Assembly (NCBI GenBank): GCA_028066595.1
Contig: JALCBJ010000004.1
Coordinates: 111,935-175,934, forward strand
Direction: 5' to 3'
Length of the DNA stretch: 64,000 nt
DNA from: Thermoanaerobaculia bacterium
GTDB lineage: Bacteria > Acidobacteriota > Thermoanaerobaculia > Multivoradales > J023
The notes under the pieces are model-generated. The model had not been told where the DNA came from and searched no databases. It saw only the letters and a program-made list of their open reading frames with translations. How positions within the stretch are numbered: position 1 is the stretch's first letter; each line of letters starts with the position of its first letter. A program made the position numbers and the translations under genes. Of this stretch, positions 47,950 through 57,146 are shown piece after piece.

Positions 47950-48348
47950 ATGGCCGTGCCCAAGACCAGCACCATGGAAGCTAACCTCTCCGACACGGAA
48001 CTCGCGCAGTTCGAAGACGCTCTCCAAAAGAAACGTCGCGAGGTGGTCAGTCTCTACGAGCACGACGTCAAGGTAGGCCAGGAGTCGACCGACGACAACT
48101 CCGACGACTTCGCCGATCGCGCGAACAATTCATACAACCGCGAGACGATGTTCGCACTCTCCGACGTGGAGAGGCGCATGGTGATCCAGATCGATGCTGC
48201 CCTCGAGCGCATCAAAAACGGGCAATTCGGCATCTGCACCCATTGCGGCAGTTTGATCGGCCGCCCCCGGCTCGAAGCCGTGCCGTGGGCCGAGTACTGC
48301 ATCGAATGCCAAGAGAAGGCAGAGAAAGGTCTGCTGCTGGGTCCTTGA
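47950..48348 (+). CDS. TraR/DksA-family zinc-finger protein
   Basis: The 132-residue protein has an acidic coiled-coil (EDALQKKRREVVSLYEHDVKV, then DDNSDDFADRANN, carrying the DxxD/A tip typical of DksA) and a C4 zinc finger with C96-x2-C99 and C117-x2-C120 (CTHCG, CIECQ). Members bind the RNA polymerase secondary channel and modulate transcription with or without ppGpp. A ribosome site AAAGGG precedes the ATG. A 12-bp perfect inverted repeat follows the stop codon. Confidence 0.93.
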   Translation: MAVPKTSTMEANLSDTELAQFEDALQKKRREVVSLYEHDVKVGQESTDDNSDDFADRANNSYNRETMFALSDVERRMVIQIDAALERIKNGQFGICTHCGSLIGRPRLEAVPWAEYCIECQEKAEKGLLLGP

Positions 48349-48672: not shown

Positions 48673-49860
48673 CTAGACGGTCTGGACCTTGGTGGCCTTC
48701 TGCTGTCTCTTGCTGGCCGTCATCTGCTCCCAGAGCAGTGCGAACGGGCTGGCGACGAAGACCGAGGAGTAGGTTCCGATGAAGACACCTACCATGAGCA
48801 CGAACGCGAAGCCCCGCAGCACCTCACCGCCGGCGACGAAGAGGCAAGCAACCACCAACAGGGTGGTACCCGAGGTGAGCACCGTGCGTGACAACGTCTG
48901 GTTGATTGAAAGATTCATCACGTCTTCCAGCGGCATGCGCTTGAAGCGATCGCGGTTCTCGCGCACGCGATCGAAGATCACCACCGTGTCGTTCACCGAA
49001 TAACCCACCAGTGTCAGGAACGCCGCGATGGTGGGCAGATTGAACTCATAGTTCATGATGGCGAACAGGCCCAAGGTGATGAAGAAGTCGTGGAATACCG
49101 CCACCACGGCACCGATGCCGAAACGCAGCTGGAATCGGTACCAGATATACGTCAGCATGCCGATCAACGACAGCACCACGGCAAGCGCACCTTTGGTACG
49201 CAACTCCTTGCCGATCTGCGGACCCACGTTCTGGTTGCTGCGTACCACGTAGGAACCGAGGTAGGCGCCGTCGCGAATCTCGTCGTAGGCGGCACTCGAC
49301 AAGCCATCCACCGCCTGGAGCTGCTCCCACGTGGTGAACAGACCGAGCCTCTGACGCGCATCGACCACGGCGTTGGCGATCGCTTCGTAATGAGCGTTGG
49401 CAGCGTCCACGTCGTCGGCCATCAGCCCGTCGGGATCCGACGCCTTGAGAACCGTGGCGATGGAATTGGTACCGCGCTGGTTCAAATCGTTCTCGTTGTC
49501 GCCGCGGTCTGGATTGAACGCCTCGTTGAGAGCAGCCAGTAGCTCTTTGGAGGAGCCTTCTTCACTGCCTTCCTTGACCGGCGTCTTGATCAGGACCTCA
49601 TGATTCTCCGGTGGACCGTACTGCTGGATCTGCGCATCTCGCTGACCCGCAGCACCGAGGGCGGAGCGGATCTGATCGACGCCGACGCTCTCGTCGAACT
49701 TCACAGTCAGCTGGGTGCCTCCGGCGAAGTCGATGCCGAAGTTGAGACCTCCGAGGAGGAAGAACTCGACGCCCGTCGCCACCAGCAGGGCGATCGAGAC
49801 CCAGATGAAGAACTTCCGGTAGCGGAGAAAGGGGATCTTGGTATTGGTGAGGAATTCCAT
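48673..49860 (-). CDS. secF: Protein translocase subunit SecF (with enlarged periplasmic domain)
   Basis: The 395-residue protein is longer than a standard ~310-residue SecF. It has the first helix, the FGIDFAGGTQL box (41-51), QNVGPQIGKEL before helix two, and the late conserved VGYSVNDTVVIFDRVREN and RTVLTSGTTLLV. The extra length lies between about residues 95 and 208, including a helix-hairpin-helix-like stretch FTTWEQLQAVDGLSSAAYDEI. With SecD it forms a proton-driven RND-type motor that pulls exported proteins through SecYEG. It follows secD after 11 bases. Confidence 0.96.
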   Translation of the reverse strand: MEFLTNTKIPFLRYRKFFIWVSIALLVATGVEFFLLGGLNFGIDFAGGTQLTVKFDESVGVDQIRSALGAAGQRDAQIQQYGPPENHEVLIKTPVKEGSEEGSSKELLAALNEAFNPDRGDNENDLNQRGTNSIATVLKASDPDGLMADDVDAANAHYEAIANAVVDARQRLGLFTTWEQLQAVDGLSSAAYDEIRDGAYLGSYVVRSNQNVGPQIGKELRTKGALAVVLSLIGMLTYIWYRFQLRFGIGAVVAVFHDFFITLGLFAIMNYEFNLPTIAAFLTLVGYSVNDTVVIFDRVRENRDRFKRMPLEDVMNLSINQTLSRTVLTSGTTLLVVACLFVAGGEVLRGFAFVLMVGVFIGTYSSVFVASPFALLWEQMTASKRQQKATKVQTV

Positions 49861-49871
49861 GGCTGCCTCGA

Positions 49872-51446
<1,575 letters not shown>

Positions 51447-51534: not shown

Positions 51535-51876
51535 CTACTGGGCCTCGGGTGGTTCCGCCTCACCTTCGAATCCTGCGATCGCCCGGCGCGAGACACGGAT
51601 CCGGAGGTTGTCGGCAACCTCCAGCACCACCACGCCGTCGTCTACCTTGGTCACCTTGCCGTAGATGCCGCCGTTAGTGATCACCTTGTCACCCTTTTTG
51701 ATCGCGTTCAGCATCTCCTGGTGCTCTCGTTGCTTCTTCTGCGCTGGACGCCAGAGGATGAAGTAGAAGATCACCAGGATCAGGATCCAGGGTGTCAGCA
51801 TGCCGAGCAAGCTGGGTTGGGCGGCTTGAGCGGGCAGTAGCGGCGGGAGGGAGGTGAGGATCGACCACATGGGCAA
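51535..51876 (-). CDS. yajC: Preprotein translocase subunit YajC
   Basis: The 113-residue protein has a single N-terminal membrane helix (TPWILILVIFYFILW) directly followed by RPAQKKQREHQEM and the cytoplasmic domain LNAIKKGDKVITNGGIYGKVTKV, the hallmark YajC sequence. It is the third member of the SecDF-YajC complex. The start may be MPMWS or the second Met. It lies between tgt and secD. Confidence 0.97.
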   Translation of the reverse strand: MPMWSILTSLPPLLPAQAAQPSLLGMLTPWILILVIFYFILWRPAQKKQREHQEMLNAIKKGDKVITNGGIYGKVTKVDDGVVVLEVADNLRIRVSRRAIAGFEGEAEPPEAQ

Positions 51877-52017: not shown

Positions 52018-53145
52018 TCAGGTCTCGGGCAGCGCGGTGCTGGGCGGGGCGGGCGCAGCGCGCAAATCACCTGTTGCCGTCAGCGTTCCGGATTCGACAC
52101 GTTCTCGCAACTGCCTCATAAAGTCAAGATAGAAGCGGACGTTGACGACGGTCGCCAGGACGTGAGCCGTGATCTCCTTGGTGCGGAACAGGTGATGCAG
52201 GAACGCCCGGCTGTAGCGCTGCGCCAGCGGCCATGTGCTCTCTGCATCTAGCGGCGTGGGATCGTCTTTGTAGCGTGCGTTCTTGATCTTGATCACCCCT
52301 TCGGCGGTGAACAGCTGGCCGTGGCGCGCGTGGCGGGCCGGCATGACGCAGTCGAAAAGGTCGACGCCGTGGGACACGCCGTGCTGGATGTCCTCAGGGG
52401 TTCCCAGTCCCATCAGGTACCGCGGCCGATCCTCGGGTAGCAGATGGCCGATCCACTCGACCACGCCGCGCCGCAGCTCGGGCCCTTCTCCGACACTGAC
52501 ACCCCCGATGGCGTAGCCTTGGAAATCCAGCGGGGTCATGGCGTCGACCGCGCGCCGGCGCAGCTCCGGAAAACCCGATCCCTGAACGATGCCGAAGAGC
52601 CCGCCAGCCTGGTCGTCGGGCCACGCGGACCTCGCACGCTCAGCCCAGTGGAGCGTCAGCTCCAGCGATTGAGCGGCCTTCTTCTCGTCGATGGGCCACG
52701 GCGGGCAGTCGTCGAGCATCATGGCGATGTCGACACCCAGCCGGCACTGGGACTCCACCACGGTCTCCGGCGTGAAACGAACCTTGTCGCCGTCGACGTG
52801 GGAGCGGAAAGTCACGCCTTGCCGGTCGAGCTTGCGGCGCTGGGCCAGACTGAAGACCTGATAGCCACCGGAGTCCGTGAGGATCGGCCTGTCCCACGAC
52901 GTGAACCCGTGGATGCCACCCAGGCTTTCGATGACATCGATACCAGGGCGCAAGGTCAGGTGATACAGGTTCGACAGCATGATCTGGGAGCCAGCCTGCT
53001 CCAGATCGTCCACCGACAGACCCTTCACCGCACCCAGCGTCCCCACAGGCATGAATGCCGGCGTTTCGATCACACCGTGGGGCGTCGTCAGGCGACCCCG
53101 GCGAGCCTTGCCGTCGGTAGCTAGAACTTCGAACTCTAGAGGCAT
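52018..53145 (-). CDS. tgt: tRNA-guanine transglycosylase lacking the zinc site
   Basis: The 375-residue TIM-barrel enzyme exchanges guanine for preQ1 at position 34 of tRNAs with GUN anticodons, in queuosine synthesis. The catalytic set is intact: D91 in ILTDSGGYQVFS, LDDCP around 145, GYAIGGVSVGE for base binding, and nucleophile D265 in VDLFDCVMPAR. In other bacterial Tgt proteins the following segment holds Zn ligands CxCxxC and a later His in NTIHNLRYY. Here these read AESTWPLAQ (301-309) and ATVVNVRFY (331-339), so all four ligands are replaced while the flanking YSRAFLHHL is kept. The gene heads the yajC-secD-secF run, 9 bases after the LolA-like gene. Confidence 0.96.
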   Translation of the reverse strand: MPLEFEVLATDGKARRGRLTTPHGVIETPAFMPVGTLGAVKGLSVDDLEQAGSQIMLSNLYHLTLRPGIDVIESLGGIHGFTSWDRPILTDSGGYQVFSLAQRRKLDRQGVTFRSHVDGDKVRFTPETVVESQCRLGVDIAMMLDDCPPWPIDEKKAAQSLELTLHWAERARSAWPDDQAGGLFGIVQGSGFPELRRRAVDAMTPLDFQGYAIGGVSVGEGPELRRGVVEWIGHLLPEDRPRYLMGLGTPEDIQHGVSHGVDLFDCVMPARHARHGQLFTAEGVIKIKNARYKDDPTPLDAESTWPLAQRYSRAFLHHLFRTKEITAHVLATVVNVRFYLDFMRQLRERVESGTLTATGDLRAAPAPPSTALPET

Positions 53146-54013: not shown

Positions 54014-56914
54014 CTACGCGAGCTCTCGCAGCAGCACACCGGCCGTCTCCTGGACCAAGGGATCCCGATCCCGTTCGGCGGCACGACGTATCAGTGCATT
54101 CAATTCCTCGACTCGATATTCCTGAATGAAGTGAAGAGCCGCGGCCGTCAACCAGGCTGCGTCCGCATCGCCGGTAGAGCGCCTCCTGGCGAGGCGCCGC
54201 AACGTATTCCCCGGCGGTTCTGCCTCGAGTCCGAAGAGTCGTTGGGCTGTCTTGATGCGATCATCCCGTGACACGTCGTCGACCAGTGCCAGCACCCACT
54301 GACGCACCTCGCCGTTCATCAGGTTGTCGAGATACTCCAGGGCGTGGGCTCGCACCGAGGTGCGCACCGACCCGAGGCCACGGTGGGCCGTCGCGACATC
54401 GTGGCTGGGATGGCGCAAAGCCAACAAGCCGAACACCAGCTGCTCCTGGCGATTCCGGCGGTCCGAGAGCAACCTCGGCAGGAGGTGGGACCGGACACCC
54501 AACGACTCCAGGCTCCAGAGATCGAGTTGGTGACGCAGGTACTCACGGCACTCAGCACCGATGCGATCTTCGAGCACGTTGGGATCTGGACACAATCTCC
54601 CGCTTCCGCACATGGAAGTGAGCGCTTCCACCACCTTGCGACGCTGAAACGAATCGGCCACGACCAGCGCCTCGGTCAGCACACGTAGCGCCTGTTCTCC
54701 GCCCACTCTGGCGATCGTCTTCGGCAGGCCACGACGTACCCAGATCGGTTCCTGGGGATCGAGGAGGAAGTGACGCAACGCCGGGATCGCCATCTCTCCG
54801 TAGGCAGCCAGCGCCTCCCGAGCTTCGTGCTTGAGCCTCCGCCGATGCAGAAGCGAGATCACGGTAGGCATGTAGATGGGATTGCCACCGGTACGCTGCG
54901 TGCGGTCGCGAACCGCTCCCAAGGCCGCCCGCACCACCCGGTCGTCGGGATCGTAGAGCAGCTGGACCATGCCCGTCTGGAAACGCGGCTCGTCCAGCTC
55001 GCCCAAGGCCCGCGCCGCCTCGATGCGCACCTCCGGATCCCGGTCGGCCATCATGTCCGCCAACGAAGAATCTGCCAGGGATAGCAGGTCCGGATCGTCG
55101 AGGGTCGCCAAATAGCTGACGGCGACGGCTCGGACTCGAGGGTCCGGTTCCTGCAGGCGAGCCTCCATGGGCTTGCGCAGATCCTCGGTCGACAGCGCTG
55201 CCAGCGTACGAATCGCCGACACGCGGACTGCCGGCTCCGGATCCGCCAGAAGACGCTCCACCCACGGCTCTGCATCGCGTCGCTGACCGCGGCGAAGGAC
55301 ACGCAGCACCTCCAGACGCACGCCCGGGGCATCGTGCGCCAACATCAGAGGAGGGACGAGGTGCCCCCGGCCGTGTGCGTCGAGCAGCTCTACCGAGTGC
55401 TTTACCTCCCGGTTGTCGGCGCTGCCGAGCCCGGCCACCAAGGTCTCCAAGGTCTTGCCGTCGCGCAAATCGAGGTGCAGCTCCTCCGTCTGGCCCGAGA
55501 GCAGCCGCTGCACCAGACCCTCGCGGAAACCCGCCACGTAGTGACGCTGGAGAGTCCCGAGAATTGCCAGCCAGGCCACGACGCAACCCAACGCCAACCA
55601 TGCCGTCGCTGGGACCGAGATCCAGCCGAACGTCACCGAGAGGAGAAGCAAAGCAGCGAGGCCCTTGGCCACCCGCTGCACGAACACGTCGACGAAGGCC
55701 TTGGCGCGTGGTCGTCGTCTCGCGGGCACCGGAACGAAGAGCAGCTCGCGGGTAGCCTGGTCGAGGGAATACCGCAGGCCGTTCTCCGCCGCCTTCACCA
55801 GCCACAGTACCGGCAGCACAAAGGCTGGTGCAAAGAACGCCGCGCCGAGGAACGCCGCGGCACCCAACCCATTGGTTACCGGCAGCACTCGGAGAGCGAA
55901 ACCCACACCGAGCCGCCGGTGAATCCGAGAGGTGAAGAGGAGCTGAAAGACGAAGGCTGCCAGCCCCATGACACTGTAGAGGTTGCCGAAGATCGCGGTG
56001 CGCTGGTGCAGCGTTTCGGTGGCTCGCTCCACCGCCCAGCCGAACTGAAGGTCTACCACCTGCGCGACCGTCGCCGCGAGCAACATGAGTAGCGATACGC
56101 GTCGCAGATATCCCGACCGCAGCACCGTACCCATGCCTTCCCTGGCCGCACGAAGCTGCACGTCGACTTGCTCGTCGGGGTCACCACCCACAGGAGCGGC
56201 CGGCACTTCATCTTCCGCTTCCTGTTCGCACCGAGCGCCGAAACGGCGGCCGAAGAGCAATGCCAGGAAAGAACCCGAAAGCAGCAGTGCCGACCCCAGG
56301 AACAGAGCTCCCGACGCACCAGACCACAGGCTACCGAGACGCGCCACCTGCCCACCGACGATGCTACCGAGAAGCCCGCCGGCACCCAAGAAGCCGAAAA
56401 GACGACGCGCTTGGCGCGCATTGAAAACATGACTGGACAGCGACCAGAAGAGGCTGACCAAGAGAATCGCCACGACCGCGGTCCATAGATACAGCGCGGT
56501 CGCGGCCAAGGCCAGTCCCTCGCCATTCCCGGTCCGGCGAAACCACTCGCCGAAGCCAGCGGTCACGAGAGCTGCCAGCAACGTCAGAACGGCGAGAAGG
56601 CGGTCGAGACGGAACACGCGGACGAGACGTCCATAGAGCAGCAACACAGGATACGAGAGCAAGGCCACGGCCAGATAGACACCCGGCAACTGCTCGGCCC
56701 CGAGCGCATCGATGAAACTCGACTGCCGCAACGATTTGCCCACATACTGAAAGGCCAGCAGCAGGAAGTGGACCGCAAACAGCAGCCAGCACACCGCACA
56801 CTCGCCGGCCCGCACATCGAGACCGAAGCGACGAAACCACACCGGACCGCCCGATCCGGAGTTCGGCTCCGGAGACGAGCCCGGCGGATCAATCTGGACG
56901 TCTCGAGCTGTCAT
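54014..56914 (-). CDS. Nucleotide-transporter-like (NTT/MFS) protein fused to HEAT repeats
   Basis: From the ATG at 56914 the product is 966 residues. The N-terminal ~450 residues hold 11-12 membrane helices in the pattern of the ATP/ADP-translocase-like MFS group (FWSLSSHVFNARQARRLFGFLGAGGLLGSIVGG, LRYSLDQATRELLFVPVP, KAFVDVFVQRVAKGL). The remaining ~500 residues are HEAT-type helical repeats, for example DPEPAVRVSAIRTLAAL, DPRVRAVAVSYLATL and DPEVRIEAARALGEL. The repeats should lie in the cytoplasm. Transport of nucleotides is not proven; signature charged residues of true NTTs need alignment. A TTG start upstream (57031) is less likely. Confidence 0.85.
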   Translation of the reverse strand: MTARDVQIDPPGSSPEPNSGSGGPVWFRRFGLDVRAGECAVCWLLFAVHFLLLAFQYVGKSLRQSSFIDALGAEQLPGVYLAVALLSYPVLLLYGRLVRVFRLDRLLAVLTLLAALVTAGFGEWFRRTGNGEGLALAATALYLWTAVVAILLVSLFWSLSSHVFNARQARRLFGFLGAGGLLGSIVGGQVARLGSLWSGASGALFLGSALLLSGSFLALLFGRRFGARCEQEAEDEVPAAPVGGDPDEQVDVQLRAAREGMGTVLRSGYLRRVSLLMLLAATVAQVVDLQFGWAVERATETLHQRTAIFGNLYSVMGLAAFVFQLLFTSRIHRRLGVGFALRVLPVTNGLGAAAFLGAAFFAPAFVLPVLWLVKAAENGLRYSLDQATRELLFVPVPARRRPRAKAFVDVFVQRVAKGLAALLLLSVTFGWISVPATAWLALGCVVAWLAILGTLQRHYVAGFREGLVQRLLSGQTEELHLDLRDGKTLETLVAGLGSADNREVKHSVELLDAHGRGHLVPPLMLAHDAPGVRLEVLRVLRRGQRRDAEPWVERLLADPEPAVRVSAIRTLAALSTEDLRKPMEARLQEPDPRVRAVAVSYLATLDDPDLLSLADSSLADMMADRDPEVRIEAARALGELDEPRFQTGMVQLLYDPDDRVVRAALGAVRDRTQRTGGNPIYMPTVISLLHRRRLKHEAREALAAYGEMAIPALRHFLLDPQEPIWVRRGLPKTIARVGGEQALRVLTEALVVADSFQRRKVVEALTSMCGSGRLCPDPNVLEDRIGAECREYLRHQLDLWSLESLGVRSHLLPRLLSDRRNRQEQLVFGLLALRHPSHDVATAHRGLGSVRTSVRAHALEYLDNLMNGEVRQWVLALVDDVSRDDRIKTAQRLFGLEAEPPGNTLRRLARRRSTGDADAAWLTAAALHFIQEYRVEELNALIRRAAERDRDPLVQETAGVLLRELA

Positions 56915-57146
56915 GCTTCGGCGAGGGGCTGCGGATCCAGAGCTCTCGTCAACGGCTGACTGGTCGCCGCGTTGCGGCGCGCCACGGCCTCCGGTAAGGT
57001 CCACTGGCTGCCGCTCGGCGAACCCAGCCAACGAAGGTCGTTGACGAGCGATCCATCCGACGAGCGGTCATCTTGTCACGCACCCGGCCTCCGTACGCCC
57101 GGACCCGTGACCCTCTCGCCCTGTGACCTGCCCAAAGGAGCCCCCG

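Follow-up and report, generated by a model that had tools for sequence, protein, structure and literature searches.

A tRNA-guanine transglycosylase from a Thermoanaerobaculia bacterium with all four zinc ligands replaced, probably a metal-free enzyme

The tgt locus

The window, that is, the whole stretch of 64,000 nucleotides analysed here, carries on its minus strand a gene for tRNA-guanine transglycosylase (Tgt), an open reading frame of 375 codons with no internal stop or frameshift (Table 1). Its product scores 448.9 bits against TIGR00430, above the equivalog cut-off of 306.75, and 452 bits against PF01702 (cut-off 26.3). It is the single PF01702 match in the source genome, a draft of 228 contigs and 7.5 Mb (assembly 95% complete), in which no second Tgt, zinc-bearing or other, was found. 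The closest named Tgts are those of a Thermoanaerobaculia MAG (63% identity) and an Acidobacteria MAG (60%), both of which fall within the window's order in the tree; the next is at 53%. On these matches the phylum is most probably Acidobacteriota.

A LolA-like gene lies upstream of tgt, and yajC, secD and secF follow it downstream; yajC adjoins tgt in a sister species of the same genus as well. This is where tgt usually lies, in E. coli as well. The gene is thus in an orthologous position both by its neighbours and by its place in the tree, where it groups with the Tgts of its own family (support 97). The CxCxxC...H site plays no part in judging Tgt orthology; the protein is clearly a member of the family, orthodox by descent and variant by structure. 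To note, a further minus-strand ORF of the window (54014-57031, 1005 residues) looks, by eye, like a multi-pass membrane transporter in its first half and like HEAT-type repeats in its second.

Table 1. Features of the tgt locus, in window coordinates
Feature	Position	Strand	Basis or remark
tgt, tRNA-guanine transglycosylase, 375 aa	52018..53145	-	start ATG at 53145, stop 52018-52020; TIGR00430, PF01702
Asp91, catalytic general acid/base, kept	52873..52875	-	invariant, 181/181 rows
Base-binding motif GYAIGGVSVGE, residues 210-220, kept	52486..52518	-	alignments
Asp265, catalytic nucleophile, kept	52351..52353	-	invariant, 181/181 rows
Former CxCxxC zinc loop, residues 301-309, AESTWPLAQ	52219..52245	-	alignments to E. 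coli Tgt and to 181 Tgts
Ser303 for zinc ligand Cys (E. coli C302)	52237..52239	-	alignments
Trp305 for zinc ligand Cys (E. coli C304)	52231..52233	-	alignments
Ala308 for zinc ligand Cys (E. coli C307)	52222..52224	-	alignments
Dimer-interface helix, residues 311-324 (Y311, F315, H318, L319, E324), kept	52174..52215	-	residue composition
Val334 for zinc ligand His (E. coli H333); Leu in sister species	52144..52146	-	alignments
yajC	51535..51876	-	Pfam YajC, 106 bits; downstream neighbour of tgt
secD	49872..51446	-	Pfam SecD/SecDF domains
secF	48673..49860	-	Pfam SecD_SecF_C, 224 bits

Four ligands replaced in a conserved neighbourhood

The zinc ligands of E. coli Tgt are C302, C304, C307 and H333, the numbering of the PDB chain being offset by one. 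The phmmer alignment to that chain (10fb_A) is gap-free in this region and places S303, W305, A308 and V334 of the window Tgt opposite C/C/C/H. The same four columns are obtained from a 30-locus alignment and from a MAFFT alignment of 181 distinct full-length Tgts. In the latter, 170 rows read CCCH at the ligand columns, and SWAV or SWAL is seen solely in the window Tgt and its sister-species orthologue: the CxCxxC...H site, hallmark of the family, is absent from both. The original prediction, that all four ligands are lost while their surroundings are kept, is confirmed by the three alignments. It also held that the catalytic residues and the base-binding motif are intact, and this is borne out: both catalytic aspartates and the GG of the motif are present in every one of the 181 rows, the window Tgt included. 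Their roles are those of the Z. mobilis counterparts, Asp102 as general acid/base for Asp91 and Asp280 as nucleophile for Asp265 (PMC4425180).

The selectivity of the change can be expressed against the 74 near-invariant columns, defined as those at least 97% conserved among the 170 CCCH Tgts. The window Tgt and its orthologue depart at exactly four of them, the zinc ligands, and the other 70 positions are all intact. The hypergeometric probability that four departures placed at random on 74 columns hit just these four is 8.7e-7; ordinary Tgt rows show 0.4 departures on average, with a maximum of 5. Displacement of the ligands to nearby positions is rejected: the only cysteines common to both zinc-less Tgts of the genus are C147 and C266, each near-universal, leaving none to spare.

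Helix 311-324 follows the former zinc loop; its Y311, F315, H318, L319 and E324 sit opposite W326, Y330, H333, L334 and E339 of Z. mobilis TGT. The dimer hot spot of the latter comprises Trp326, Tyr330 and His333 (PMC5395182). As the equivalent residues Y311, F315 and H318 of the window Tgt are ordinary for the family, its homodimer is probably kept.

The AlphaFold model of the window Tgt (mean pLDDT 88.9, pTM 0.88) displays the TIM-barrel fold and the C-terminal subdomain and is superposed by Foldseek on Z. mobilis TGT over 357 columns with a rmsd of 1.5 Å. Its helices and strands match those of a zinc-bearing control (L031), with helices predicted at 306-310, 313-321 and 325-352, to be compared with 307-311, 314-322 and 326-352 in the control. 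Confidence over residues 301-310 is 84, versus ~95 in the control. The fold is thus predicted to be unchanged in a protein devoid of zinc ligands, with lower confidence in the zinc loop itself. The model is weak evidence on the zinc site, because its input alignment consists of zinc-bearing relatives and pulls towards their fold.

A replacement shared with a sister species, in a gene under purifying selection

The orthologue from the sister species (L028, own assembly) is 72% identical and has S/W/A/L at the ligand positions, in frame. The motif SxWPLAQRYSRAF is common to both species of the genus (SSWPLAQRYSRAF in the sister species versus STWPLAQRYSRAF in the window). The two proteins differ at 112 of 374 residues, and 119 synonymous differences are spread across the 262 identical ones. 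Over the whole gene, dN is 0.24 and dS 1.24; for residues 296-345 the values are 0.17 and 0.80. The gene is therefore under purifying selection, the new motif having been kept while much else drifted.

In the tree, the two genus members form one clade (SH-aLRT 98) inside the family, and the four other family members examined are all CCCH. A single replacement event, or series of events, on the genus stem is the parsimonious reading of this topology. The terminal branch of the window Tgt (0.42) is about twice that of its relatives (0.21-0.22), a mild sign of faster change that could mean some relaxation. Further substitutions set the two genus members apart from the rest of the order: T297, H166, R108 and, within PARNARHG, N272H. 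H272 occurs in 9 of the 181 Tgts.

Other zinc-site losses

A profile of zinc-bearing sites was run against 396 genomes of the phylum. The same loss, for which a search across the phylum had been proposed, did not turn out to be general: among these genomes the SxWPLA-type motif is restricted to one genus, and phylum-wide loss is rejected. The scan uncovered instead a separate lineage, as one family scored far under all others, bar a gene fragment in G173. All seven genomes examined from the order of that family, which represent two genera and measure 1.5-2.4 Mb, encode a Tgt from which the CxCxxC loop has been deleted, HPEYPFSRALLRHL being an example, and whose zinc His has become Ile (L160-L163 and L175-L177; genomes G085, G043, G058, G402, G422, G271 and G423). 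These Tgts retain D91, D265, Q188 and the GG motif, and QueG is present in all three of the genomes checked for it. Parts of their dimer interface are altered more, with L at 315 and H at 324. The loop-deleted clade has a support of 100, as does its split from the window's order, and the two losses are therefore separate. In both of these complete losses, the zinc His gives way to an aliphatic residue. Loss of the zinc site has occurred at least twice in clear Tgt orthologues, and the window Tgt is filed as a variant.

Outside the phylum, the sample comprises 80 named loci, nearly all CCCH. The Tgt of an Aeromonadales MAG (HyVt-500, L044) shows a single-ligand loss, CCCA, with three zinc Cys kept and the His changed to Ala. 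In another Tgt (L211 1486-2604, IMGVR_UViG_3300032255_000145), GSTEVG replaces the three zinc Cys while the His is kept. The contig is listed as viral; a YajC-like ORF, identified by eye, follows this Tgt, and the stretch therefore probably is cellular and not viral.

Tgt was not found in five genomes of the phylum estimated to be 95-99% complete (G340, G262, G056, G225 and G298). The zinc site is kept in two very divergent Tgts on long branches, L200 (G232; 1.85) and L026 (G014; 1.48). Two Tgt genes are present in G014, and likewise in G026.

Queuosine pathway and zinc economy

QueA and QueG are present in the window genome and in the sister species. QueF was not found in the window genome, and a QueC-like match there passes no cut-off. 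The base is probably salvaged, since QueA and QueG are found and QueC and QueF are not: the likely pathway, as read from the gene content, is uptake of preQ1 or of a preQ0-derived base, insertion by Tgt, and then the action of QueA and QueG. Since most zinc-bearing relatives that were checked likewise lack QueC and QueF, the absence of these two enzymes has no tie to the loss of zinc and was rejected as a correlate of it. One genome of the same family, G003, is the only one of those checked in the family to have both QueC and QueF; de novo preQ1 synthesis therefore appears patchy within a single family.

In the window genus and in the loop-deleted order alike, ribosomal protein L36 retains its C-C-C-H ligands, and the DksA encoded in the window (47950-48348) retains a four-Cys finger. 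A genome-wide abandonment of zinc is rejected on this evidence; within the set of proteins compared, the loss concerns Tgt alone.

A probable metal-free Tgt and its alternatives

The explanation that we favour with good, though not complete, confidence is that of an active, metal-free Tgt in which the zinc cluster has been replaced by hydrophobic packing of Trp, Ala and Val or Leu. The window Tgt would be the single working Tgt of the organism, inserting preQ1 at position 34 of GUN tRNAs as in other bacteria, and would have given up its structural zinc ion. The post-TIM-barrel loop is normally tied to the C-terminal helix by the CxCxxC...H cluster, at whose positions S-x-W-P-L-A and V/L stand here. 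W305, packed against V334 (Leu in the sister species) and A308, would hold the same subdomain, to which the dimer interface and some of the surface that binds tRNA belong. The enzyme would still exchange guanine 34 for preQ1; the presence of QueA and QueG bears on this exchange only indirectly. PMC9508795, citing Chong et al. 1995, reports E. coli Tgt as zinc-dependent for activity, which counts against activity of a metal-free form. Zinc seems dispensable in nature, because the sister species has the change and a distant order lost the site independently. The broader claim, that Tgt zinc is dispensable and that at least two losses in one phylum, by substitution and by loop deletion, each gave a fully active, metal-free and hydrophobically packed enzyme, is held with less assurance, as probable.

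A degenerating or inactive Tgt, which lost its zinc site as the enzyme was no longer needed, would agree with the longer terminal branch, with the absence of QueC and QueF, and with the several genomes of the phylum entirely devoid of Tgt. Decay of this kind is unlikely, however, given the intact catalytic residues, the confinement of change to 4 of 74 near-invariant sites, the purifying selection on the gene, the new motif common to two species, and the retention of QueA and QueG. These same observations support the original prediction of a coherent variant as opposed to random decay.

About as improbable is an active enzyme whose substrate has shifted, to a different base, set of tRNAs or nucleic acid, with the change in the zinc subdomain serving this shift. 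Dimerisation and the binding of tRNA both involve that subdomain (PMC6165067), and the pair-specific N272H, T297, H166 and R108 would fit such a scheme. Yet the base-pocket motif and catalytic residues are unchanged, QueA and QueG are present, H272 is also found in a few other Tgts, and no DpdA-type system was seen beside the window tgt.

Continued metal binding, through other residues or with a partner protein, could call upon the His residues that the two genus members newly share at 272 and 166, and upon H317 and H318 near the site. We give it little credence: the only Cys left are the near-universal C147 and C266, and S, W, A and V/L at the former ligand positions form no usual zinc ligand set. 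A sequencing, assembly or frameshift artefact, conceivable in a draft of this many contigs, has a probability that is practically nil: it is refuted by the sister-species gene, whose independent assembly carries the same replacements in frame, and the residues flanking the site in the window Tgt align gap-free on both sides with E. coli Tgt.

Significance and comparison with known systems

The open-access literature searched yielded no description of a natural Tgt lacking the zinc site. New as well are the independent loop deletion with His to Ile in another order of the phylum and the further loss of all three Cys on the L211 contig. Natural zinc-less orthologues with the other near-invariant residues intact offer a direct test of the purpose of zinc in fold, dimer and tRNA binding, and two different evolutionary routes to a metal-free replacement are illustrated. 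PMC9508795 counts TGT among the zinc-requiring queuosine enzymes. Queuosine has been reported to be linked with zinc homeostasis, and the present findings bear on this, as the Tgt described here would be insensitive to zinc shortage.

PMC6165067 and PMC4425180 describe the zinc site as a hallmark of TGTs, bacterial to human, which even the catalytically inactive subunit of the eukaryotic enzyme retains. The eukaryotic queuine TGT, QTRT1/QTRT2, belongs to the same family and shares the zinc-domain fold with the window Tgt, but has the zinc site in both subunits (PMC6165067, PMC4425180). Compared with bacterial Tgt (TIGR00430; E. coli, Z. mobilis), the window Tgt is alike in length, predicted fold, catalytic Asp, base-binding motif, dimer-interface residues and yajC-secD-secF order. 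Unlike the E. coli and Z. mobilis enzymes, it lacks a zinc ligand at all four positions, where Trp, Ser, Ala and Val/Leu are found instead.

In C-minus zinc-ribbon ribosomal paralogues, a structural zinc cluster is likewise replaced by ordinary packing with the function kept; such paralogues are second copies that serve when zinc is short. The window Tgt, in contrast, is the only copy found, unaccompanied by a zinc-binding one, and the L36 of its genome has not lost its zinc ligands. The closest parallel in the same phylum is the Tgt of the loop-deleted order (that of G085), which also has no zinc ligand and a hydrophobic residue in place of the His. It differs in having lost the CxCxxC loop by deletion and not by substitution, in carrying His for E324 and Leu for F315, and in its independent origin.
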